The translations under genes and the position numbers were made by a program. A model generated the notes under the pieces. It worked only from the letters and a program-made list of their open reading frames with translations, did not search any database and was not told the origin of the DNA. From a virus, in IMG/VR virus record IMGVR_UViG_3300048927_000439, positions 1 through 34,398 of that record: DNA of 34,398 nucleotides; one strand, written 5' to 3'. Shown piece after piece: positions 4,029 to 29,329 of this stretch (position 1 is its first letter; each line of letters starts with the position of its first letter).

Positions 4029-5399
4029 TTAACGGCAAGTGATGATCACTTCCGCTTCGTCGCCAGCCTCTAGATGATGCTGGGTCGCGTTGAGCTTGCT
4101 GTGGCTGATCCTGCCTGCCGAAGCAACCTCAACGTTCGCGAAATGAGGCTTCGCGAGGCTAAGGATCTGCTCGATCGTCATTACCCTCGGGTGGACCGTA
4201 CCCGTAGATTTGAACGGTGAATAAGACAGTACTAAGCTCGCCCCCGCATGCTTCACACCTGCGAACATTGCATTGAACGCACCGGGTGCTTGTGACCGGA
4301 TGCAGAAGGGAGATTGATGTCTCTCTGCCCTATAGACGCCTCTGCTGATGCGTGGCTCTTTTGCTCTGATGCGGGTTGTAGATAAAGTGGGTTCGTCGCC
4401 TAGGCACATCGTTTCCAGTACGTGATAGAATCGGCTGTAGTGTTCCCGCGTGTACGGAGGGTCGGCGTAAACCACACCGACTTCGCCTCTGATAGCCGTA
4501 AGGGTATCGACGTAGTCGCCCTTGATCACCCGGTGCATTCGAGAAGTGGTGTCAACGATGTCATAGCGACTGGCCCACCTAGTCGCAGCTTCTGAGGCTT
4601 CCAATCCTCTGTCCCGCACTATCTTTGCAATAAGGTGGCGCTTCGGATCGCCTGAGGAATCGCGGGGCTGGATTGGCTGTGCGAACTGCTTCCCAACAGT
4701 ATTTACGATCTCACTGGCGGTGCTAACTGCTATTGCAAGCAGCGTCTCTCTTAGGGGCGAAGCCGCTTTGTGCGCTGATGCTAGGAGCGCGTCTAGGTAG
4801 GCCGCCTGCTTGTAAGAGAAGTAGAGGCCGCCGTAGTGCCGGATCATCACTGTTCCTAATCTGGGCTCGGTGCCTGCTAGTAGTTTTGCTACTTCGCGCT
4901 GCGCTCGATTCCCCTCACTCGATGACATCCAATCTGTCGTCACCAGCGACGCATGTTCAATCAGATCGCAGATTGCTTCTGGATGTCCCCGTCTTGCCTG
5001 GGCAAGAGCTTCTTCTTCGTACTGAATGAGGGGTGCAACCCGTTCAAGTCTGGCTGATAAATCACGTTCGAACGTGTCGCTGAATATCCCACTGCGGATC
5101 TCTGCACCTATGGAACTTGGAAGCAGTATGGCCGAGCATAAGACCCTGGAATACTCCTGAATATCCGCTGCAACGACGTTACGTGTGAAGCTCAGAGCGG
5201 CAGCTACTGTGCCTGATCCTGCGAACAGATCGCAGACAGCCTCATCTTGCGAGCTGACACTATCTATTGCTGCCTTTACCGGCTCTAGTAGGCGGAGTTT
5301 GCTGCCCAGGTAGTGGATGGGACGCCATGGGGTCAGCTCTTCGAAACTCGATGACGGCGCAGAGACGCCCCCGATTGGTGTATCTAAACTCTTGTCCAT
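4029..5399 (-). CDS. DNA adenine-N6 methyltransferase, alpha (D12) class
   Basis: A 456-residue S-adenosylmethionine-dependent DNA methyltransferase. Motif order is that of the alpha/D12 class: an N-terminal YLGSKLRLLEPV (motif X, about 30-41), the AdoMet-binding CDLFAGSGTVA (about 56-66), a long target-recognition region and the catalytic YADPPYTREHYSRFY (DPPY at about 313-316). DPPY indicates m6A. It is somewhat longer than Dam-type enzymes, as expected for a restriction-associated enzyme. It converges with the PLD nuclease and diverges from the second methyltransferase, whose start is about 75 bp away. In BfiI-type systems two methyltransferases protect the two strands of an asymmetric site, and this is probably one of the pair. 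The ribosome site is weak. Recognition sequence unknown. Confidence 0.88.
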   Translation of the reverse strand: MDKSLDTPIGGVSAPSSSFEELTPWRPIHYLGSKLRLLEPVKAAIDSVSSQDEAVCDLFAGSGTVAAALSFTRNVVAADIQEYSRVLCSAILLPSSIGAEIRSGIFSDTFERDLSARLERVAPLIQYEEEALAQARRGHPEAICDLIEHASLVTTDWMSSSEGNRAQREVAKLLAGTEPRLGTVMIRHYGGLYFSYKQAAYLDALLASAHKAASPLRETLLAIAVSTASEIVNTVGKQFAQPIQPRDSSGDPKRHLIAKIVRDRGLEASEAATRWASRYDIVDTTSRMHRVIKGDYVDTLTAIRGEVGVVYADPPYTREHYSRFYHVLETMCLGDEPTLSTTRIRAKEPRISRGVYRAERHQSPFCIRSQAPGAFNAMFAGVKHAGASLVLSYSPFKSTGTVHPRVMTIEQILSLAKPHFANVEVASAGRISHSKLNATQHHLEAGDEAEVIITCR

Positions 5400-5429
5400 A
5401 AAATTCTATCTACTATGATTCCGGCATTG

Positions 5430-5452
5430 TGCTGCTCAGGATTCGGGCAGCA
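5430..5452. promoter_or_regulatory. Inverted repeat in the divergent methyltransferase promoter region
   Basis: TGCTGC (5430-5435) and GCAGCA (5447-5452) form a perfect 6-bp inverted repeat with an 11-nt spacer. It lies in the short region that must hold both promoters of the divergent methyltransferase genes, if the second one starts at 5475. No controller (C) protein gene is visible nearby. It is short enough to be chance. Confidence 0.25.
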
Positions 5453-5474
5453 GGCATCAGTCTATAGGTTCAAT

Positions 5475-6704
5475 ATGAGCGATATACCAGCCGGAAGGCG
5501 AGGGCGCAGCCAGTCCTTGCGAGTTCTAGACTCTTGTCATGGCGATGCTCCGCTGGGGATCGATACAAACACGATTATCCGGGGCGACAATGTGGTGGCC
5601 CTGCAACGACTCTTAGCGACGCACAGAGAGACAGTGCGATGCGCATACATCGATCCTCCATACAACAATATGGAGAGCTACAACCATTATACGGATCGCC
5701 AGACCCATGGGCATTGGCTAGAGCAGATTGAGGATGTTTGCCGTCGTATTCATCCACTGCTAACTCCGGACGGTAGCTTATGGGTGTCAATCGACGACAG
5801 GGAAATGCATTACCTTAAAGTGGCGTTGGACGGCATCTTTGGAAGGCACAACTTTATCAACACCATCGTTTGGGAGCAGCGGACCACGCGAGAGAACAGA
5901 AAAGTGTTCTCGAACAATCACGAGTACATACTCGTCTATGCCAAAGATTGCGTGTCATTCAAGAAAACGCGCGGCTTGCTGGAGTGGGATGAAGCCGTGC
6001 TTACGAGATATAAAAACCCTGATCGCGACTTACGCGGCCCCTGGCAGTCGGTGTCCGCCAATGCGCAAGCTGGGCATGCCACAGCGTCCCAGTTCTACGA
6101 GTTGGTTGCACCTAACGGGCGCAGACATCTGCCGCCAAAAGGTAGATGCTGGGTTTACTCGGAAAATCGCATGAGAGAGGAGATCGAAAAGGGAAACATC
6201 TGGTTTGGACGGGATGGCAGCGGCGTGCCTCGGATCAAGAAGTTTCTGCATCAAGTAAAGCGAGGATTCACGCCACATACCCTCTGGAAAGCGGAGGAAG
6301 TGGGCACCAATGATGCGGCGAAAAAACACCTTCTAAATCTCTTCCCTGATGAACAGGTTTTCGACACACCCAAGCCTGAGAGCTTGATTCATCGCGTTCT
6401 GACCATCGCAAGTAGCCCCGGTGACCTGGTACTAGACGCGTATCTGGGTTCAGGAACAACTGCGGCAGTAGCTCATAAGATGGGCCGCCGATACGTGGGA
6501 ATCGAGTGCGGGGATCATGCCATTACACATTGCGCAGATCGTATACGCAAAGTCATTGCGGGAGAGAATGGCGGCATATCTAGTGCGGTGAAATGGGAGG
6601 GAGGCGGTCCCGACTTTGAGCTTATCGAGATTAACAGAAGCAACAACAACAACTTACAATTACCCCAGAGGAGCCGAGGGAAGATACGGCGCGCGCATGA
6701 GTGA
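5475..6704 (+). CDS. DNA adenine-N6 methyltransferase, beta class (Mod-like)
   Basis: A 409-residue methyltransferase with the reversed motif order of the beta class. Catalytic YIDPPYNNMESY (DPPY at about 60-63) comes first, then a recognition domain (about 130-300), then the AdoMet site VLDAYLGSGTTAAV (about 319-332) and RRYVGIE. This is the layout of Type III Mod and related Type II m6A enzymes. No res helicase follows, so Type III is unlikely. The start is uncertain: ATG 5475 gives a natural N-terminus and has a weak AGG upstream, whereas ATG 5415 adds 20 residues without a ribosome site. Divergent from the alpha-class enzyme. Two classes of m6A enzyme next to one PLD nuclease fit strand-specific protection of an asymmetric site. 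Confidence 0.88.
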   Translation: MSDIPAGRRGRSQSLRVLDSCHGDAPLGIDTNTIIRGDNVVALQRLLATHRETVRCAYIDPPYNNMESYNHYTDRQTHGHWLEQIEDVCRRIHPLLTPDGSLWVSIDDREMHYLKVALDGIFGRHNFINTIVWEQRTTRENRKVFSNNHEYILVYAKDCVSFKKTRGLLEWDEAVLTRYKNPDRDLRGPWQSVSANAQAGHATASQFYELVAPNGRRHLPPKGRCWVYSENRMREEIEKGNIWFGRDGSGVPRIKKFLHQVKRGFTPHTLWKAEEVGTNDAAKKHLLNLFPDEQVFDTPKPESLIHRVLTIASSPGDLVLDAYLGSGTTAAVAHKMGRRYVGIECGDHAITHCADRIRKVIAGENGGISSAVKWEGGGPDFELIEINRSNNNNLQLPQRSRGKIRRAHE

Positions 6705-11066: not shown

Positions 11067-12350
11067 TCAATAGTCGTATTTCAGCTTGCTAAGCGCGTCG
11101 CTCAGCTGCGCTACAGTGTAACCAGCCTTGAAGTAAACTTGCTGCGTGACGCCTGCTTGCTGATGGCCCACGATAGCCTTGACGAATGTCTGGTCTACAC
11201 CGGCCTGAGAGAGGTGGGTTATCACGGTGTGCCTTAGCGAATGAAAGACTAAGTCTTCAGACTTGATCCGAAGCGCAGGCAAGAGTGACTCATTGAACCA
11301 CCGTCCAAGTGTGCGCCCCCAACCGTTGTTCGGTGAGTACGAGAAGTCAGGAAACAACTTCAGGCACTGTTTCTTTTTCATCGATTCGACATAGTCGAGT
11401 AGGCCCAACTCTATCAGTTGAGGATGCACAGGAACGATACGTTTTGCCGCTGTGGTCTTGAGGTGTTTTCCATCACCTGCATCATTGATGTCGAAGCACC
11501 AGATGCCGTCCTTTTCGATGAAATCAGATAACGCAAGTTGTGCGATCTCGTTCAGACGTGCTCCTGTATAGGCGCCAATTAGTGGGCCCCATTTCCGATA
11601 GGCTTTGCCAGTTAGAGGTGACGTCTCATCCGTCACTACTCTCAAAATAGAGGCCATTTGATCTGGGGAGAAGGCCGAACGACCATGCTTTCGATCCCTG
11701 CGGACTCGTATTGCAAGACCGGAGAAATGGTTCTTCTCAATGAGTCCATTCTTATGAGCCCATTCGAACATGTCGCTGTAAGTCTGGAGATATTTGTTGA
11801 TTGTCGGGACTTGGATACGGTCCACGCCTACCAGTTTGATGACCTCTTCTAACGACTTGCCGCGTGTTGCCGGGTTCTTTGACCTATTCTTCGGGTAATG
11901 GCTCAGCACCTCTTTTACCTTCCGCGCTGACAGAGCATTCAACGTATCTAGCGTTGTTGTCTCGCCAAGCGCTTCATTCAGCAAAGCTATATGGTCTGAT
12001 TTCTCAAGGATTGTTTTCGGGACCCAACTGTCTGCGCGCTGCTTTTCGGCAGTGTAAGTTTCAGCGAGTTGTGCAATTGTGAGTGCGTTGTTCGCAACCG
12101 GGTTGGCTTCAATCATCGCGGCGGTGCCGCTGCCTTGGTCAAAGCTGTAATGCCTCAGCTTGGTTTCATAGTCGAGAAGACTTTTGAGGGCGTCACGGTA
12201 CGCATGCCGATAGTCCCTCTCTAGTATTCCGTACTCATCGGTGCCGGGCTTTAGCTCAGAGAGCTGGCTCGGGAAATCTGAACAGCGGGGATAAGTGGAA
12301 TTTCTGCCTGACTTCGGCTTAGATGCCGGGAACAGGAGAGACCATGACAA
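11067..12350 (-). pseudogene. Tyrosine integrase, 5' end replaced by an IS element
   Basis: A phage or island-type tyrosine recombinase catalysing site-specific integration and excision. The catalytic residues are present: Arg265 in YTGARLNEIA, His370-x-x-Arg373 in FHSLRHT, His396 in VGHQQ and the nucleophile Tyr406 in QVYFKAGY. The core-binding domain (about 90-215) is also intact. The first 24 codons are IS3-element sequence read backwards; native sequence begins at 12278 (DFPSQLSELKPG). Family members normally have about 50-100 more N-terminal residues that bind arm-type DNA sites, so this copy has lost its own start and probably that domain. The catalytic part could still be translated from within the IS, but activity is doubtful. 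Confidence 0.85.
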
Positions 12351-12655
12351 AGCGACCGCGCCGGAACCATAGCCCGGCTTTCAAGGCAAAGGTGGCGCTT
12401 GCCGCCATCCGAGGCGAGCAGACGCTGGTGGAACTATCCCAGCAGTTCGACGTGCATGCCAACCAGATCAAACAGTGGAAAGACCAGCTCCTTGAGGGGG
12501 CCACAGGCGTTTTCGGCGATGAAGCGAAGACGGAGCCTGCGGGTCCAACCGTCGATGTGAAAACACTGCACGCCAAGATCGGCGAACTGACACTGGAGAA
12601 CGATTTTTTATCCGGTGCGCTCGGCAAGGCGGGATTGCTGGGCGGAAAGAAATGA
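12344..12655 (+). CDS. IS3-family transposase OrfA
   Basis: A 103-residue protein with an N-terminal helix-turn-helix (FKAKVALAAIRGEQTLVELS, then QQFDVHANQIKQWK) that binds the IS ends, and a C-terminal leucine-zipper-like helix (LHAKIGELTLENDFLSGALG). ATG 12344 is preceded by AGGAGAG. Its stop overlaps the OrfB start (ATGA at 12652-12655). In the IS3 family a -1 frameshift before this point usually makes the OrfAB transposase; here the sequence GGAAAGAAATGA offers an A-rich slip context. Confidence 0.9.
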   Translation: MTKRPRRNHSPAFKAKVALAAIRGEQTLVELSQQFDVHANQIKQWKDQLLEGATGVFGDEAKTEPAGPTVDVKTLHAKIGELTLENDFLSGALGKAGLLGGKK

Positions 12656-13482
12656 TCAACCGCGAGCATAAGCTATCCGTCGTGCGCCAGGCGAAGCTTC
12701 TCGGCTTCAGCCGTGGCAGTGTCTATTATCTGCCTCGTCCAGTGCCTGACGGCGATCTTGCCCTGATGCGTCGAATCGACGAACTGCATCTCGACTACCC
12801 CTTTGCCGGAAGCCGGATGTTGCAAGGGCTCTTGAGAGGAGAAGGGCTGGAGGCTGGGCGGCTGCACGTCGCCACGCTGATGAAAAAGATGGGCATCGAG
12901 GCGATCTATCGTCGCCCGAACACATCCAAACCAGTGCCAGGTCACAAAATCTATCCCTACCTCCTGCGAAAGCTGGCGGTCATCCGACCCAACCAAGTCT
13001 GGGCAATGGACATAACGTATGTCCCGATGGCTCGCGGCTTTGTCTATCTCTGTGCCGTCGTGGACTGGTTCAGCCGGAGGGTTCTGTCGTGGCGGCTATC
13101 GATCACGATGGAAGCCGCTTTCTGTGTCGAAGCGGTTGAGGAGGCACTTGCGCGCTACGGCAAGCCCGACATCTTCAACACCGACCAGGGATCGCAGTTC
13201 ACCTCCATCGACTTCACCGCCGTGCTGAAGAAGGCTGAGATTGCCATATCGATGGACGGCAAGGGCGCGTGGCGGGACAATGTCTTCGTCGAACGGCTCT
13301 GGCGCTCGATCAAATACGAGGAGGTCTATCTCCACGCCTACAAGACCGTGTCCGAGGCCCGCGCTGGCATCGGCCGATATCTGACCTTTTACAACAGCCG
13401 ACGCCCACACTCATCCCTTGACCGGCAGACGCCGGATCAGGCTTACTTCAAAGCGCTGACACCGATGAAGGCGGCAGCATAA
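12652..13482 (+). CDS. IS3-family transposase OrfB (DDE integrase core)
   Basis: A 276-residue catalytic subunit. The DDE triad is visible: Asp120 (WAMDITYV), Asp178 (FNTDQGSQFTS) and Glu214 (NVFVERLWRS), with the 35-residue D-E spacing typical of IS3. An HTH_21-like segment (IDELHLDYPFAGSRMLQGLL) precedes it, and the C-terminal YNSRRPHSSL motif is also diagnostic. It overlaps OrfA by 4 bp. No internal stops, so the transposase appears intact. Confidence 0.93.
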   Translation: MINREHKLSVVRQAKLLGFSRGSVYYLPRPVPDGDLALMRRIDELHLDYPFAGSRMLQGLLRGEGLEAGRLHVATLMKKMGIEAIYRRPNTSKPVPGHKIYPYLLRKLAVIRPNQVWAMDITYVPMARGFVYLCAVVDWFSRRVLSWRLSITMEAAFCVEAVEEALARYGKPDIFNTDQGSQFTSIDFTAVLKKAEIAISMDGKGAWRDNVFVERLWRSIKYEEVYLHAYKTVSEARAGIGRYLTFYNSRRPHSSLDRQTPDQAYFKALTPMKAAA

Positions 13483-18195: not shown

Positions 18196-19338
18196 TCAGA
18201 ACGTCATGACGTAGTTGATGGTGGTGTAGTGCACCGCGCCGGCGTAGCGGAACCGGACCGAGATCGCCGGAGCGATACGGGCCTTGCGCTGGCTTTCCGG
18301 CACATCGAACACCGACGGAACGGTGATTTCGACTGCAGGGGCATAGTCGCCGGTCTCGGGGTCGAGGTCCTGGGCAATCAGGCCAGCGCGGGTTGCCTGC
18401 TGCATGACGGTGCGCGCCGCAGAGGCGAGCGTCTGCATACCGGCATCGGTAAACGGCACGCGGGCATTGTTGAGCAGGATGCCCAAGCTTTCCTCTTCCG
18501 TGCGCGCGATGATCCAGTCCGTCGTGTGGATCTCGTCCAGGAAGACGTTGGCCGTGAGGGTCGAGCCCTCGACCACGAAGTTCCGACTGCCGATGTCGAT
18601 ATAGGTGTTGGCCATATGACCAACCGATTCCGACTGACCAACGCCAGGCGTGAAGCCGGTGATTGCTGCGATCGCCGCAGAACCCAGATTGACGGCGCTG
18701 ATGCCCTTCAGGTTCTTGAACTTTGCCGTGTAAGCGCTGTTGGCATCGTCGAAATTGCGGGTCGACATCCAAGCCGCCAGAGCGGCGGCAGGGAACAGCG
18801 AGGCGTCCGTGTGGTAGAAGACACCACTCCGCTCGAAGTCGCCCTTGTTGCGGGCAGCGATCGAAGTAGTGTCGGTCGGCGACTGGGTGGCTACCGCGTT
18901 GCTGTCGATGATTGCCAGCTTGTTCTTTGCTTCGGTCCACTGGATAAGACCATCGGTCGCGGCAATGTCGCGAAGCGTGGTGTCAACCGTGATGAAGTAC
19001 CAGTCCTGATCGGCATCATAGAGCGCGTTTAGCTCTGTCTGAAGCTCGGCAGCCGTCGGGGTAACATCGATCGCGACGAAACCGATCTTGATCTGCGTCG
19101 GGCGCGGGTTCTGCGAGAAGGCAGATAGAGCGGCCTTGTACGCATCAGCCGTGGTCGCGAAGTCGGCGGCCACTTCCTCGATCGAGGCATAGAGCTTCGT
19201 CCGGTGGGTCGCATCGACCTTGCCCGTCAATGCGACGGTGGTGAGAATGAGCTCAGTTCCGAAACCGCGACGGCTCGGAAAGGCATCGTTACGCGACAGC
19301 GTCACGTTGACGACGCGGTTGTAGGGTAGGATTGCCAT
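18196..19338 (-). CDS. Tail sheath protein (DUF3383)
   Basis: A 380-residue protein of the DUF3383 family, the contractile sheath of Pam3-like myophages. The N-terminal VVNVTLSRNDAFPSRRGFG and the internal YASIEEVAADFATT and FSQNPRPTQIKIGFV segments follow the sheath pattern (compare the 'fgp.s......yf...p' segments of other sheaths). The C-terminal domain contains TVMQQATRAGLIAQDL and RKARIAPAISVRFRYAGAVH. Its presence shows that the phage had a contractile tail. Confidence 0.85.
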   Translation of the reverse strand: MAILPYNRVVNVTLSRNDAFPSRRGFGTELILTTVALTGKVDATHRTKLYASIEEVAADFATTADAYKAALSAFSQNPRPTQIKIGFVAIDVTPTAAELQTELNALYDADQDWYFITVDTTLRDIAATDGLIQWTEAKNKLAIIDSNAVATQSPTDTTSIAARNKGDFERSGVFYHTDASLFPAAALAAWMSTRNFDDANSAYTAKFKNLKGISAVNLGSAAIAAITGFTPGVGQSESVGHMANTYIDIGSRNFVVEGSTLTANVFLDEIHTTDWIIARTEEESLGILLNNARVPFTDAGMQTLASAARTVMQQATRAGLIAQDLDPETGDYAPAVEITVPSVFDVPESQRKARIAPAISVRFRYAGAVHYTTINYVMTF

Positions 19339-23430: not shown

Positions 23431-23988
23431 TTACTGGTTGCCCATCCACGCCGACGTCATGTGGTCGGTCATGGCCTTGTGCGCGGCACTTGCGGTGGTA
23501 TTGGCGTCCTGCTGGGTGACCCCATTCTTGACGACAACGGCGAATGGATCGGCTTTCTTCGCGTCCTCGACGAGGATGTCGAAGCGAGCGTCGATGTAGG
23601 CGTCGGCCTTGTCAGCCACAGCGGCGTCACCGAGCTTCGCGGCAACGACAGCCTTGCGGATCGCTGCATCGGTCAGGCCCTCGGTACGGAGATCTTTGGC
23701 GATGGACTTGGCGACAGCGACGAGGTCGGCGCGGTCCTGGACCCGCTTGTCGAGATCCGCATCCGACAGAAGCTTCTTCGTCAGGTCGTCGATCTGCGCA
23801 TCCTTCTTGGCGATCTCGGCATCCTTTGCCGCGATAACCTTGGCGTGGTCGGCGTCCGCCTTGGCCTGGATGGCCTGAGCATCGGCAATCTGCTTGGTCA
23901 GGGCATCGATCGCGCGCTGCACGATCTGAGCGTCCTTATCGGTCAACTCGACCGAGAGGCCATCAACCATGAGGGTTCGGGTCGTCAT
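23431..23988 (-). CDS. Nested capsid scaffold protein from internal start
   Basis: A probable 185-residue product in the same frame as the protease gene. ATG 23988 (MTTRTLMVDGL) is preceded by AAAGGAAC at about 8 nt, as good a site as those of neighbouring genes, and marks exactly the boundary between the protease and the coiled-coil scaffold domain. Lambda C/Nu3 and P2-like genes use the same in-frame arrangement to make excess scaffold. This is inferred from the sequence only. Confidence 0.55.
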   Translation of the reverse strand: MTTRTLMVDGLSVELTDKDAQIVQRAIDALTKQIADAQAIQAKADADHAKVIAAKDAEIAKKDAQIDDLTKKLLSDADLDKRVQDRADLVAVAKSIAKDLRTEGLTDAAIRKAVVAAKLGDAAVADKADAYIDARFDILVEDAKKADPFAVVVKNGVTQQDANTTASAAHKAMTDHMTSAWMGNQ

Positions 23989-24549
23989 TGACCGTGTTCC
24001 TTTCTCTTCATCTCCGATTTTGAGGTGAGAACCGCCCCTTGCTGCGGAGACGACCGCAAGGTGGTTCATTCGAAGGTTGGTCTGGATGGCGTCATACTGC
24101 TCACCGGCAGGTGACACGCCGTCCTGAAACTTGAGAGCGGTGTCGTAGCCCATTGAAAGCTCGCGCTTTCCGCCCTCGACCTTATCAATGGCAGCCTTAT
24201 CCATGAGGACCATGGGGACGCGGACGAACTCGCCATCGCGCACCACCTCGCCACCGGTCTGGCCGACGGCAAGCTGCTTCCAGTTGTCAGAGGTGACGGA
24301 TTCCGACGGGTGATCGTCGGTCACCGGGCGGTAGGCATACGAGTGCATCGCATCCTGCGCGAAGACTTCCTCTTCAGGACGGTAGACGCGAACCACAGCC
24401 TTGTCGCGGAGACCATGCTTGTTCTCCGGATCGACTTCCCTGCCTGCATAAAGCTGGATGCCGGTCCGCGCGACCTTCACATCGGCAACGAGATAGCCAT
24501 CCTGGGTACGGCGAATGCCGTCCAAGGTCACAGTGTCAAACAGTTGCAT
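23431..24549 (-). CDS. Prohead protease-scaffold fusion (DUF2213)
   Basis: A 372-residue protein. Residues 1 to about 180 are the DUF2213 domain (VYRPEEEVFAQDAMHSYAYR, PVTDDHPSESVTSDNWKQLA, GGKRELSMGYDTALKF, NLRMNHLAVV), which includes the histidine- and serine-containing segments of the phage prohead protease group. Residues about 185-372 form a long helical, Ala/Lys/Asp-rich scaffold with a coiled coil (AKDAEIAKKDAQIDDLTKKL). ATG 24549 has GGGAGATCACCT before it. An internal ATG at 23988 with its own ribosome site suggests a separately made scaffold. Divergent from the sunset-domain gene 97 bp away. Confidence 0.82.
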   Translation of the reverse strand: MQLFDTVTLDGIRRTQDGYLVADVKVARTGIQLYAGREVDPENKHGLRDKAVVRVYRPEEEVFAQDAMHSYAYRPVTDDHPSESVTSDNWKQLAVGQTGGEVVRDGEFVRVPMVLMDKAAIDKVEGGKRELSMGYDTALKFQDGVSPAGEQYDAIQTNLRMNHLAVVSAARGGSHLKIGDEEKGTRSMTTRTLMVDGLSVELTDKDAQIVQRAIDALTKQIADAQAIQAKADADHAKVIAAKDAEIAKKDAQIDDLTKKLLSDADLDKRVQDRADLVAVAKSIAKDLRTEGLTDAAIRKAVVAAKLGDAAVADKADAYIDARFDILVEDAKKADPFAVVVKNGVTQQDANTTASAAHKAMTDHMTSAWMGNQ

Positions 24550-24910: not shown

Positions 24911-25158
24911 CGAGCATTGCCAAGAGTCCCCATATGCGTCACAACTGGCGCATGACCGACGAACAGTTCCGAGCTTTGCGGCAGTTGATCCTTGACCAAA
25001 ACGTCAAGATCGAAGCGCTGTCCCTTGAGGTCCGGAAGCTCAAGCAGATCCTTGAGACAACCGAAGTCCTCGTCGTAGAGGATGAGCGCGTCACTAGCGA
25101 CGAACTCGAAGAACTCATCAGAACTCGACAATCCCGCGGGCCACGCACCGACAATTGA
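24907..25158 (+). CDS. Small coiled-coil protein, second gene of plus-strand moron pair
   Basis: An 83-residue charged protein. The helix EQFRALRQLILDQNVKIEAL, then SLEVRKLKQILE has heptad-spaced hydrophobics, and an acidic helix (ERVTSDELEELIRTRQSRG) ends it. The ATG overlaps the sunset gene stop (ATGA 24907-24910). Its last 41 bp overlap the convergent MuF gene end, so the two transcripts are antisense there. MTDEQF at codon 16 is a possible internal start. Function unknown. Confidence 0.55.
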   Translation: MTSIAKSPHMRHNWRMTDEQFRALRQLILDQNVKIEALSLEVRKLKQILETTEVLVVEDERVTSDELEELIRTRQSRGPRTDN

Positions 25159-25933
25159 TCGGCTGGCCTGGCGGTAGGCCGTCCTCGGCGCCCGTTGGCT
25201 CGCCCCACTTATAGGTGTTGCCGTCAAGCTTCCTGTGCAGCGCCCTCACCCGCTCATCATGCGCGGTCACCCACACATATGATGTAACGCCTGCCTGCTG
25301 TTGCCGGATCTTGTTGAGATCCGAGTTGAACTTGCCGGTCTGGTCGCGAGCGATCAGCTTTGCGCGCCGATCGGTGATTCCGAACTGCTTCTGCAGCTCT
25401 TTCCGCAAGGTGGCGACCGAGTTGCCGGCGATGCTGTTCGTGTAGACCGTCTGTTCGATCCGCTTCACGATGTCGTCGGACATGCTCTGGATCAGAGACG
25501 TGTTCCGAGCGACCGCCGCCTGCAGATAATCACTCAGGTCCTCGTCCCGAACGACCGACGACAGGTTGATGCCCAGCGCCCGCTTGGCCGTTGCCATGAA
25601 GGCTTCGGTGTGGCGCTGCCCTTCGAGATCAAGGATGCGGCTCACTGTGTCGGATGCCACCCGCTGCAACTGGTTCGCCAGCGCTTGCAAGGTCGAGAAC
25701 CAGGTTCGGTCCGCGTCTCCCGTGAAGGCGCGCGCGGCGCGCTTCTGCGTCTGTTCCTGTTGGTAGAGCGGGATGATGCTATCCCGCGCTTCCTTCGCAA
25801 TCTCATTCAGCATCGACCACAGAGCGGCGTAGTACTGCTTTTCGAACGAGAGCCGGACATCGACCGCCGGCAACTCGACTACAGTGCCCTTGGGCTTCTC
25901 GGCCAGCTTGGCAATGGAGTAACGGAGCATCAC
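25118..25933 (-). CDS. MuF-type minor head protein
   Basis: A 271-residue protein with the Mu F / SPP1 gp7 domain: AKLIARDQTGKFNSDLNKIR, YVWVTAHDERVRALHRKLDG and the C-terminal LPPGQPINCRCVARGIVEF with its CxC pair. Such proteins bind the portal inside the head and may be ejected with DNA. Its start overlaps the portal stop by 4 bp (ATGA). The N-terminal about 130 residues are helical. Confidence 0.9.
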   Translation of the reverse strand: MMLRYSIAKLAEKPKGTVVELPAVDVRLSFEKQYYAALWSMLNEIAKEARDSIIPLYQQEQTQKRAARAFTGDADRTWFSTLQALANQLQRVASDTVSRILDLEGQRHTEAFMATAKRALGINLSSVVRDEDLSDYLQAAVARNTSLIQSMSDDIVKRIEQTVYTNSIAGNSVATLRKELQKQFGITDRRAKLIARDQTGKFNSDLNKIRQQQAGVTSYVWVTAHDERVRALHRKLDGNTYKWGEPTGAEDGLPPGQPINCRCVARGIVEF

Positions 25934-27744
25934 TCCTCACTGACGTTGGACTGCCAGTCCTCTTTGACCTCTTTGAACACTTCGGGGCCGAGCACGATCT
26001 CGCCCTGGTAGGGTTCGACCGTCGATAGATCCGGCGCATCCGGGTCATAGCTGATGGTGATGTGAGGCTGATACTCGGGATGATCCCAAGTCGCGCCCCG
26101 CTCCACCATCTCGTCATGACGCCAGCGGAGCATGTTGGAGGAGAAGAGTAACACGCGAGCCTCGCCGAACTTCTCCATCAAGCGAGCACCACCGCGCGGA
26201 ACCTTCATCTCTTCGTCCCATGCGCTACCCATCTCCATCCAGTCGACGGGTGTGCGGCTGTAGGTGATGGTCACATGCAGGTCGTCTGCGGGAAGCGTCT
26301 TGAAACCCTGCCCCTTTGCCCAGGCGATGATCTCGGCGGCGTTCACGACGTTGCGAGAGACATACAGTGTCCGAGGAGCCGCATCCTTGGCCTGCTGTTT
26401 GGCAGGCTCTTCCGTCGGGTCTGTCTCGTCATCCTCGCCGAGGTCGAACTCGCCCTTGGCATCGGTGTCGGCTACCGCCTGGTCGAGACCCGGATAGAAA
26501 CTCGACTCCACCAACTGATTGGTGACGACCGTGCGCAGCTCGACAGGCGTGAAGATGCCCGTGTCCGTCAACGTCTTTGCCGTCTCGGCGTTCATCTTGC
26601 CGATCTCGGCCTGTTCCTTCTCGGTCATCTGCTTGAGCGGAGACCAATCGTAAAAGACTTCCGGCGGCCGGCTGCCGAGTGCAGAGCGGATCAGGCACTC
26701 GTCGAACCGATACAGCGCCGGCGTGATCTCCAGCATCTGGATCGAAGAAACCCGATCGTAGTAGTTGTTCATGTCGGACTCGCCGGTCGACGACATACCC
26801 GCCGGCGACTGACCGAGGAGACGGGTCACCGGGATATCGGCGGCACCGGCCGCCATCTGCAGGAACGACTGCATGACGTCTGGCAACGTGGCGAAACTGA
26901 CCTGCTTGCGCTCGTATTCCTCGTCCTTGTCGAGGATCAGCGCGCGGTTGATACCCTTCGAGGTGGCCGCCAGCGTGAAGCGCTCAAGCAACTTGTTGCG
27001 ATAGACCGGGTCCGCCAAGCTCGCCATGAAATCAGGGATGCGGAAGACATCGACATTCGCCTCGAAGACAAGGCTCGCGATGTTCGCCGCGGTCGCGTCC
27101 GCATTCCTCATGGCGGAGTAGACGGACTCGATGATGCTGTCGCCCCAGCCCTGGTTGACACCGAAGTTCAGCAGGTTGTCACCGTGCGGTGCGCCGATAA
27201 AGATGGCGAGCCGCGATGGGTGAATTTTCACCATGGTGGCGTTGCCCGTCACCTCGTACCAGGCGGGTTTGCCAAAAAACTCCGACAATACATCCTGCTC
27301 GATCGGGCCCGCCGTGACATCGCGGCGCGACAGCACCGTGAGATACTTGATACCGCCCTTGCCCATGCGCTCGACATTAAGCGGCTGCATAAGATCCTGC
27401 TCGCCGGTACCGATATAGAGCGCAGCACCACCCCACAGGCGAGCCTTGACCTTTACATCAAGGAGTTTTCCCCAGAAGTTGAGGCGCTTCTCCTCGCCCT
27501 CGATGAGTTCTATCTGGTCCTGTTCGGCCTGCCATTCTCTACCCTTGCGGATGGCATCCATCGCCGGGATATCGACGATCTTCCGGCCAAGCCAGTTGCT
27601 CTTGTAGATCGCGGCAAGCTGATAGTCGTCGATGTATTGAAGGCCATAGGAGGCCGTCGCCATCTTGTCCCGGTTAGGATCGCCAAGGCCAGCGACGACC
27701 GAGCGCAGGCTGTCATTCGCCCGAAGCTGGATCACGTTACCCAT
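25930..27744 (-). CDS. Portal protein (DUF1073) with C-terminal Acb1-like 2H phosphoesterase domain
   Basis: A 604-residue protein. Residues 1 to about 420 are a DUF1073-type portal (LVFEANVDVFRIPDFMASLA, VTRLLGQSPAGMSSTGESDM, NNYYDRVSSIQ), the dodecameric DNA channel of the head. After an acidic linker (EFDLGEDDETDPTEEPAKQQ), about 150 C-terminal residues form a 2H phosphoesterase domain with its two HxT motifs, LHVTITYSR (His about 490) and QPHITISYD (His about 561). This arrangement is shared with Acb1, the phage enzyme that cleaves cyclic oligonucleotide signals of CBASS. I use ATG 27744 because AGGAAGGG lies just upstream; ATG 27762 lies before that site. Portal function is sure; enzyme activity is inferred. 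Confidence 0.88.
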   Translation of the reverse strand: MGNVIQLRANDSLRSVVAGLGDPNRDKMATASYGLQYIDDYQLAAIYKSNWLGRKIVDIPAMDAIRKGREWQAEQDQIELIEGEEKRLNFWGKLLDVKVKARLWGGAALYIGTGEQDLMQPLNVERMGKGGIKYLTVLSRRDVTAGPIEQDVLSEFFGKPAWYEVTGNATMVKIHPSRLAIFIGAPHGDNLLNFGVNQGWGDSIIESVYSAMRNADATAANIASLVFEANVDVFRIPDFMASLADPVYRNKLLERFTLAATSKGINRALILDKDEEYERKQVSFATLPDVMQSFLQMAAGAADIPVTRLLGQSPAGMSSTGESDMNNYYDRVSSIQMLEITPALYRFDECLIRSALGSRPPEVFYDWSPLKQMTEKEQAEIGKMNAETAKTLTDTGIFTPVELRTVVTNQLVESSFYPGLDQAVADTDAKGEFDLGEDDETDPTEEPAKQQAKDAAPRTLYVSRNVVNAAEIIAWAKGQGFKTLPADDLHVTITYSRTPVDWMEMGSAWDEEMKVPRGGARLMEKFGEARVLLFSSNMLRWRHDEMVERGATWDHPEYQPHITISYDPDAPDLSTVEPYQGEIVLGPEVFKEVKEDWQSNVSEE

Positions 27745-27886
27745 TGCGGCCCTTCCTGACATTCGGCGGGTTCTTCACGACGTCACGAGCGACCTTCGGC
27801 AGCACTTTCAGGACGCCCTTGGCTCCTGCCTGCTTCCGTGCTTCGGCAATCATCTGCCGGCGCTTCTCACAAGGTCCACAGGCCAT
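27737..27886 (-). CDS. Tiny phage protein between terminase and portal
   Basis: A 49-residue, very basic protein beginning MACGPCEKRRQMIAEARKQA and ending in VVKNPPNVRKGRNG. The CxxC near the start and the basic helix are the only visible features. It begins 4 bp after the terminase stop and ends inside the portal start region (8-bp overlap with the chosen portal ATG), which supports a coupled gene in the chain. Too short for default gene callers. Function unknown. Confidence 0.65.
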   Translation of the reverse strand: MACGPCEKRRQMIAEARKQAGAKGVLKVLPKVARDVVKNPPNVRKGRNG

Positions 27887-27889
27887 AGG

Positions 27890-29329
27890 TCATCCAATAT
27901 TCGACAGAGTGTAGTTCGAGCCGGTGATGTGGACGTTGTCGGCAGCGATCACCGCGTCCGCAAGATTGTGAGACTTCACGCCCAAGTCCTTCTTGAGCTT
28001 CAGTTTCGGGACAACCCGCTTTTTCCCCTCACTCTCAGCCCACCAGGGCACACAAAGCTCGGTGAACAGAGCATCCAGCTTCTCTTTCCCCATCTTCGAG
28101 GAGAACGAAAGGATATCCTCGGGTTTGACCGGATGCCCTCTAACCACGGCGTTGAAGGTGAGCATGGCGCGGCGAGCAGTATTGGCCCAAGCCTGCGCCT
28201 TGAGGTTCAAATACTCGTCCTTGTTGAGAGGACTGTTTTTGTTTAGCGGATCGCTAGGCTTCTCGCCGTCCATGACGGCGCCGCCGGCGTGAAAAGCATA
28301 GTGCTTCACCTTCGCGCCACCTGCGCCGTTCTGCTCGTCGATATAGCCACCGACGAAGGCGCCGACGCCGATCGTGTCGTAGGATACTGTCGCGCCGGCA
28401 TGCTTGGCCTTGGCCCAAACCCGCTTCGCGTTCTGGACGAGCTCGTCCTTGCCAGAGGCCCAATCCTCGGCATCCATGAAGACGCCATTGATCTTATCCG
28501 CGGTCGCGCTCTTGTCTTCGCCGTCGTCGGCCGGGTCAAACCCGACGATGTTCCGGCCCGTCATCGAGATACCGAGCACCTCGTGGGCATCGACACAGGC
28601 ATCGAGCCATTTGCGCTTGAAGATCGACAGCTCGCTATCGCCGAGCGGCACCCCGCCATAGACGTGTTCGAACTTCTCCGGGTTGCGCTCCTGCATTGCC
28701 GCGATGTCGCGCAGCGCTTTGGCCGAAAGGAACGGGTTCTCGGTGTAGTCGATCTTCCGCACAATGCAGTGAGGCGGCACGTTGACGACAAAGTTCTTCC
28801 AGACGTAGTCAGTGACCAGCTTAGGATTGAACAGCAGTATCGCCAGACTGTCTTCCTTGCGGATCGTCGGGCCGATGACGGTCCACTGATCCTCGGTCAG
28901 CTTCTCCGCTTCTTCAACCCAAAGGATATCGACATCGGACGTGCCCTTGATGTCCTCAAGGTTTCGCTCGATGCCGTAGAAGATGAACTCCGCCCCGGTC
29001 CGCCGGTGGATGATCGTCGTCTTCTGGACGTCATAGGCGGCCTCAAGCCCGAGATGAGCGATCGCCCACTTCAGTTCGGTGTAGACCGAGTCCTGAATGC
29101 GGTTCTGAAAGCGACGAATGCAGAGAACGCGCATCCTGACGCCGACGTGATCGACCAGACGGACCAGTTGGCAAGCTGTGTCTCTGGTCTTCGAGCTCGA
29201 ACGCCCACCGTGAAGAACAGCGATGTCAGCTTGGCCCAGAAAAACCTCTTCCCAAAAGTCGTGAAGGGCTGGGTTGGTGAGGTGGGTGGTAGCGTCTAGC
29301 TCTTTTCGCTGCGCAGCACTTCCCGCCAT
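27890..29329 (-). CDS. Terminase large subunit
   Basis: A 479-residue packaging motor. ATPase: Walker A-like VLHGGRSSSKTRDTA (about 38-52) and Walker B DILWVEEAEKL, with RRFQNRIQDSVYTELKWAI typical of the PBSX-type TerL. Nuclease domain: GFDPADDGEDKSATA (first catalytic Asp) and VSYDTIGVGAFVGGYIDEQN. The length is standard. It overlaps the small terminase gene by 34 bp. It drives headful or site-specific DNA packaging through the portal. Confidence 0.93.
   Translation of the reverse strand: MAGSAAQRKELDATTHLTNPALHDFWEEVFLGQADIAVLHGGRSSSKTRDTACQLVRLVDHVGVRMRVLCIRRFQNRIQDSVYTELKWAIAHLGLEAAYDVQKTTIIHRRTGAEFIFYGIERNLEDIKGTSDVDILWVEEAEKLTEDQWTVIGPTIRKEDSLAILLFNPKLVTDYVWKNFVVNVPPHCIVRKIDYTENPFLSAKALRDIAAMQERNPEKFEHVYGGVPLGDSELSIFKRKWLDACVDAHEVLGISMTGRNIVGFDPADDGEDKSATADKINGVFMDAEDWASGKDELVQNAKRVWAKAKHAGATVSYDTIGVGAFVGGYIDEQNGAGGAKVKHYAFHAGGAVMDGEKPSDPLNKNSPLNKDEYLNLKAQAWANTARRAMLTFNAVVRGHPVKPEDILSFSSKMGKEKLDALFTELCVPWWAESEGKKRVVPKLKLKKDLGVKSHNLADAVIAADNVHITGSNYTLSNIG

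Follow-up and report, generated by a model that had tools for sequence, protein, structure and literature searches.

Acb1, described from phages T4 (gene 57B) and FBB1, has the catalytic residues H44, T46, H113 and T115 and the base-stacking residues Y12, W74, F107 and W147, with E141 contacting adenine N6; the protein with 3'3'-cGAMP is PDB entry 7t27 (Hobbs et al., PMC9117128). According to a preprint (PMC11722364), the activity of T4 Acb1 appears early, and the protein is relatively rare and confined to particular groups of phages. The word "portal" is absent from the main text of Hobbs et al. 2022 (PMC9117128). Portal-2H fusions with a proposed counter-signalling role have been in print since 2017 (Iyer et al., PMC5512222), and a paper of 2022 considered it probable that such fusions are packaged and, once injected, act against nucleotide signalling (PMC9503650). 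Iyer et al. also gave RNA processing as one option for the 2H fusions and regarded ADP-ribosyltransferase (ART), PBECR, MuF-like and polyvalent proteins as packaged or injected (PMC5512222). The available portions of the 2017 and 2022 papers mention neither an empty site nor swapping of the cassette, fusion to a protease or a link to Acb1, and no description of an Acb1-portal cassette was found in titles and the openings of abstracts, in a partial coverage of the literature.

The window, that is, the whole stretch of DNA that was analysed, is an IMG/VR virus contig of 34,398 bases. The features of the locus are as follows.

27890..29329, minus strand: terminase large subunit (PF04466, E 2.7e-36)
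25930..27762, minus strand: fused portal-Acb1 gene, 610 aa, with Phage_portal_3 and Acb1 matches in Pfam
26575..27624, minus strand: portal domain, PF06381 (Phage_portal_3), aa 47-396 (Pfam E 6.7e-104)
26383..26460, minus strand: acidic linker, aa 435-460, pLDDT below 50 in the predicted model
25948..26373, minus strand: Acb1-family 2H phosphoesterase domain, PF23474, aa 464-605 (Pfam and predicted model)
26269..26277, minus strand: first catalytic motif HVT, aa 496-498 (H496, T498)
26056..26064, minus strand: second catalytic motif HIT, aa 567-569 (H567, T569)
25972..25974, minus strand: Lys597, the counterpart of the adenine-contacting Glu141 in T4 Acb1, from a hand-read gapless C-terminal alignment with IME08 57B
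25118..25933, minus strand: MuF-like minor head protein (PF04233, E 2.6e-18)
23431..24549, minus strand: DUF2213 head protein (PF09979, E 1.7e-54)

The original prediction, made for the interval 26403-25933 (the final 157 codons of the ORF 27762-25930 on the minus strand), was of an Acb1-like 2H phosphoesterase fused to the C-terminus of the portal behind an acidic linker. This architecture was borne out: PF06381 and PF23474 both match within one ORF, and the linker lies between the portal and the domain that bears the motifs. The portal is a genuine one, since PF06381 matched at full length (347.8 bits, profile positions 1-356 of 357) and the terminase large subunit and MuF genes flank it on the same strand, the MuF start overlapping the portal stop as TGATG. 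In the predicted model the portal part superposed on the Pam3 portal 8hds_A with Z 30.6 (VIA-align). Translation probably starts at Met7 (27744) and not at the first codon of the ORF, because the relative L344 has no Met ahead of MGDVIQ. By its position, the DUF2213 gene may correspond to the phiPSA1 gene annotated as head maturation protease. Elsewhere in the window we noted a tail sheath gene at 18199-19338, as in a contractile tail, matches to an integrase (11070-12350) and, close to it, to a transposase (12652-13479) where the tail-gene cluster ends (11067-13482), and at 4029-6704 a divergent gene pair, each with a DNA methyltransferase family match (PHROGs). PADLOC gave no match.

With a 2H domain and a portal in one ORF, the gene belongs to the 2H-portal class of Iyer et al., and it shares with the described 2H-portal and 2H-MuF fusions (PMC5512222; PMC9503650) both the class of architecture and the general idea of immune-nucleotide degradation or packaging. 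The PBECR, ART and InPase cargo of portals and MuF proteins (PMC5512222) are likewise effector domains on head proteins; those are nucleases or host-modifying enzymes, whereas the Acb1 of the window is a predicted counter-defence enzyme.

The Pfam Acb1 profile matched the whole protein at aa 464-605 with 145.8 bits (E 9.6e-43) and the last 157 residues alone with 150.1 bits (E 4.5e-44), the curated cut-off being 27, and phmmer against PDB gave the Pam3 portal (9.8e-38) and phage Acb1 7t26 (5.8e-11), so that the assignment is not due to chance. LigT_PEase and 2_5_RNA_ligase2 (PF02834, PF13563) stayed below their cut-offs (22.7 against 23.3 and 20.3 against 27 bits), as did the NCBIfam RNA cyclic phosphodiesterase model TIGR02258 (12.1 bits against 65.7). 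When profiles of the relatives were run against all PDB sequences at E up to 10, the matches were the Pam3 portal and the Acb1 entries 7t26/7t27, 9q2g and 9q2y, with one unrelated chance match (E 0.2) for the profile from alignment A3; no LigT/CPDase chain was among them. The original prediction would have been contradicted by a better alignment with RNA-repair LigT/CPDase enzymes; since the Acb1 profile is ahead and PDB gave no such chain, this was not the case at the level of sequence, and the scores support a member of the Acb1 family and not a generic LigT/CPDase enzyme. The structure comparison proposed at the same time agreed: the predicted domain (464-607) superposed on 7t27 with Z 16.8 and rmsd 1.8 Å over 132 aligned residues at 29% identity (VIA-align). 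The model was built from a 41-row alignment and had mean pLDDT of 75 to 94 in blocks across residues 461-600, while an alignment-free version reached a pLDDT of only 31.8. As far as this predicted model goes, the domain has the Acb1 fold; the VIA-align list was dominated by the portal part, and the absence of LigT entries from it carries no meaning.

Two HxT motifs some 70 residues apart had been read from the sequence, with both histidines intact. Their histidines are 71 residues apart, and H496, T498, H567 and T569 are all present. For comparison we assembled 194 distinct domains, 168 within portal_3 ORFs and 26 in others, from queries that favoured portal_3 ORFs. Among the portal_3-fused domains the first motif has H in 167/168 and T in 168/168, the second H in 167/168 (one gap) and T in 158/168 or S in 7/168. 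The quartet, T or S being allowed, was complete in 189 of the 194 domains, and in strict HTHT form in 181; the exceptions have a changed catalytic letter (L013, L034, L299) or are cut or decayed (L047, L188). Column conservation averaged 0.65 over the domain and reached 0.99-1.0 at H496, T498 and H567, and dN/dS had a median of 0.105 and a maximum of 0.31 (48 usable of 53 independent pairs). The catalytic residues are thus intact and under purifying selection.

With Acb1 of T4 and FBB1 (PMC9117128) the domain has in common the fold, the HxT/HxT quartet and the equivalents of Tyr12 and Trp147 (Tyr467 and Trp603). Residues were mapped through 57B of phage IME08, in which all nine letters, by hand count, stand at the paper's numbering minus one. 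The Phe107 position is taken by His561, and the residue there is H, Y, W or F throughout the 168 portal_3-fused domains. T4 Acb1 stands alone and is early, whereas in the window it is a C-terminal portal domain with Lys in place of Glu141 and an uncertain partner for Trp74 (Glu530 by alignment, with Phe532 close by). With Lys597 the protein departs from the adenine-reading T4/FBB1 subtype, which has Glu141; Glu is found at this position in 90/168 of the portal_3-fused relatives.

Homology to the Pam3 portal (8hds) extends along the entire protein (1e-187, query residues 13-608), with HIS as the second motif of Pam3 where the window has HIT. Of the 621 residues of the Pam3 portal 442 were built in 8hds_A, and 396 of these align to the portal part of the window's protein, in an alignment that ends at 436. 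Consequently its Acb1 part, about 150 residues, is unbuilt, and is either flexible or removed.

Carriage on the portal had been called unusual, which did not hold. In a portal-centred scan of 54 loci, not selected for Acb1, the domain was present on 20 of the 25 portals at least 46% identical to that of the window and on 0/29 below 46%, a group that includes four cut or partial portals; portal-2H fusions were, besides, already published. Among GenBank phages, 1646 records matched the portal and 33 extended over 80% or more of the fused query, while 1451 matched the domain alone at E 0.01, mostly T4-like relatives by the organisms listed. An IMG/VR scan gave 49 loci, and an IMG/VR scan with a single motif gave at least 594 confirmed relatives among the 599 stretches listed, of which 80 were kept. 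A search of genome contigs with the closer alignment A3 gave 51 loci out of 72. Thus, despite the reported rarity of Acb1, one motif finds at least 594 relatives in IMG/VR, and those examined are mostly on portals.

Close portals exist without the domain, L344 being 88% and L346 84% identical to the portal of the window. Comparison of L344:3986-5374 with window positions 25930-27762 revealed a natural empty site: as far as the linker the DNA is 83.9% identical (2,993 columns), and from the final codons of the gene onward it is 82.1% identical (1,031 columns). Between these stretches L344 has 12 nt in place of the 465 nt that encode the linker end and the Acb1 domain in the window, and the stop-start overlap into the MuF gene is the same in both. 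No Acb1 remnant was found in this locus or in the whole L344 record. The idea that phages with an unfused portal carry a separate Acb1 was rejected, since none of 12 records with a domain-less portal had Acb1 elsewhere (several are fragments, and control genomes had none either); the function is therefore dispensable.

Portal and Acb1 identities were moderately correlated (Spearman 0.45; 12,246 pairs from 157 of the 168 proteins, the others being left out for short portal matches). In the pair L012/L023 the portals have 38% protein (50% DNA) identity and the Acb1 domains 95% (89% DNA), and in L306/L308 the values are 43% (56%) and 95% (93%); the opposite pattern is seen in L004/L334, with portals 91% and Acb1 domains 60% identical. 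These observations show that the domain behaves as a cassette, which portals gain, lose and exchange at their C-terminus and without which they can work.

The cassette also occurs on other head proteins. By Pfam, Acb1 is carried by Portal_Mu in L043, L179, L185 and L309, and by the HK97-type Phage_portal (PF04860) in L176, L177, L184, L339, L224 and L263, the last also with MuF. It lies N-terminal to a prohead protease Peptidase_S78 (L186:3941-5104) and to a DUF2213 head protein (L338:3818-5698), on a large polyvalent protein with LPD1/3/5 (L189) and on a 2714-aa open frame (L267). L340 and L341 are MuF-like carriers with MuF scores of 20.7 and 23.9 bits against a cut-off of 29.6, and L048 is presumably another, going by a motif. 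The ORF at L340:1802-6325, of 1508 aa, joins GNAT, topoisomerase IB and Acb1 to its weak sub-cut-off MuF-like match. Further cargo follows Acb1 C-terminally in the orders portal_3-Acb1-ADP-ribosyltransferase (L037:163-2745; L190:2994-5933, minus strand) and portal_3-Acb1-PBECR3 nuclease (L137:1830-4223). The tail of L261 was considered as ADP-ribosyltransferase-like and rejected, there being no Pfam support.

Short or near-solo forms of Acb1 were found in L049, L250, L251, L058 and L059, and L178 has Acb1 with a Gp49 match. A stand-alone Acb1 in Synechococcus phage Yong-M3-232 (L057) was rejected, a 127-nt tandem duplication splitting the ORF (L057:1464-1717). The Acb1-family protein at L058:2116-2712 (Edwardsiella phage vB_EpM_ZHS), just upstream of portal genes, is annotated as prohead protease, probably a misannotation. 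In Rhizobium phage RHph_I72 a 2.6-kb gene labelled "FAD dependent oxidoreductase" (L051:6100-8685) lies between the portal and head morphogenesis genes. Two portals without Acb1, L368:3790-7152 and L369:3863-6877, have tails of 670 and 568 aa with weak sub-cut-off Ntox50 ends, which may be cargo of another kind at this position of the portal.

For a tree we removed L057, L188 (decayed) and one domain shorter than 120 aa from the 194, and thinned the remaining 191 to 132. This tree has at least 14 changes of carrier label and at least four of portal family; support was modest, stars being given to 16 of the 129 inner branches, and starred branches alone force no multiple origins per portal group. 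What is new here is the cassette behaviour and the breadth of head-protein carriers; the fusion itself was previously predicted.

We consider it probable, though far from certain, that the domain is an active cyclic-oligonucleotide phosphodiesterase borne on the head, made late and carried as a dispensable, swappable cassette. An intact Acb1-family 2H enzyme would be tethered to the portal by the flexible acidic linker and, by homology, would hydrolyse the 3'-5' bonds of the cyclic oligonucleotides that serve as alarm signals (of CBASS, possibly also the rings of type III CRISPR); going by Acb1 biochemistry, cleavage would be metal-independent and 3' of adenosine. From portal biology, synthesis would be late, alongside the head proteins, with 12 copies per head on the capsid-lumen side: the portal C-terminus lies inside the capsid, a portal ring has 12 copies, and the PDB portal entries have 12 chains. 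Against this reading stand Lys597, His561, the uncertain partner of Trp74 and, among the 194 domains, the three with a changed catalytic letter and the two that are cut or decayed. In host genomes SMODS scored over the cut-off in 13/47 (47 of the 51 loci from the genome-contig search) against 13/101 controls (Fisher p 0.037), the control being one family with unmatched taxonomy, so that the association with hosts that have CBASS is a weak one.

That the enzyme instead processes RNA, acting on 2',3'-cyclic phosphate ends or as an RNase like Usb1, would agree with the 2H fold, with the weak LigT match below cut-off (22.7 against 23.3 bits) and with T4-type relatives annotated as RNA ligase in many records. 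We regard it as distinctly improbable: the Acb1 profile is ahead by more than 120 bits, the PDB profile searches at E up to 10 held no LigT/CPDase chain, and Iyer et al. never found these 2H versions with RNA ligases (PMC5512222). It is much less plausible still that the domain is a structural or degenerate decoration without catalysis, as its fusion to an essential structural protein and the window-specific letters Lys597 and His561 might suggest. The catalytic letters are among the most conserved across the 194 domains, the domain moves between unrelated proteins, and close portals do without it. An artificial joining of two adjacent genes by a sequencing or assembly error can practically be discounted; the duplication that splits L057 means that errors are possible in this region, but the fusion is uninterrupted in scores of independent contigs and isolates, with 168/194 domains in a portal_3 ORF (in a set whose queries favoured such ORFs), and in named phages as well.

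The same enzyme could also serve delivery, being freed from the portal (for example by a head protease that cuts the linker) and injected with the DNA, so as to destroy signals when the next infection begins. This is an unlikely but serious alternative. It draws on the repeated occurrence of Acb1 on head proteins, MuF-like and polyvalent proteins included, on its co-fusion with ADP-ribosyltransferase (L037, L190) and PBECR3 (L137), types held by Iyer et al. (PMC5512222) to be packaged and injected, and on the unbuilt Acb1 part of the Pam3 portal. The domain missing from that map is equally explained by flexibility. Portals, moreover, stay part of the virion and are not known to be cleaved, so that action inside the infected cell, while heads are being assembled, is slightly favoured over delivery. 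A review reports an interaction of the prohead protease of Bas13 with a CBASS sensor (PMC12409349), which, together with the fusion of Acb1 to a prohead protease in L186, also points to action at assembly. A portal is late, whereas the activity of Acb1 in T4 appears early, and this difference in timing counts against the favoured reading.

More speculatively, and with the balance leaning against it, head proteins (three portal families, the prohead protease and MuF-like proteins) may form a swappable counter-defence slot with Acb1 as the commonest cargo, in which the alarm would be destroyed where it is raised, some CBASS sensors detecting head assembly, or pre-empted by a virion-carried enzyme. 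The portals of the window and L344, 88% identical, one with and one without the cassette, provide a natural design for testing the time and place of action of the enzyme. If the domain is active, counter-CBASS enzymes would be common in phages, in those of Alphaproteobacteria in particular, and would be positioned or delivered by the head itself.
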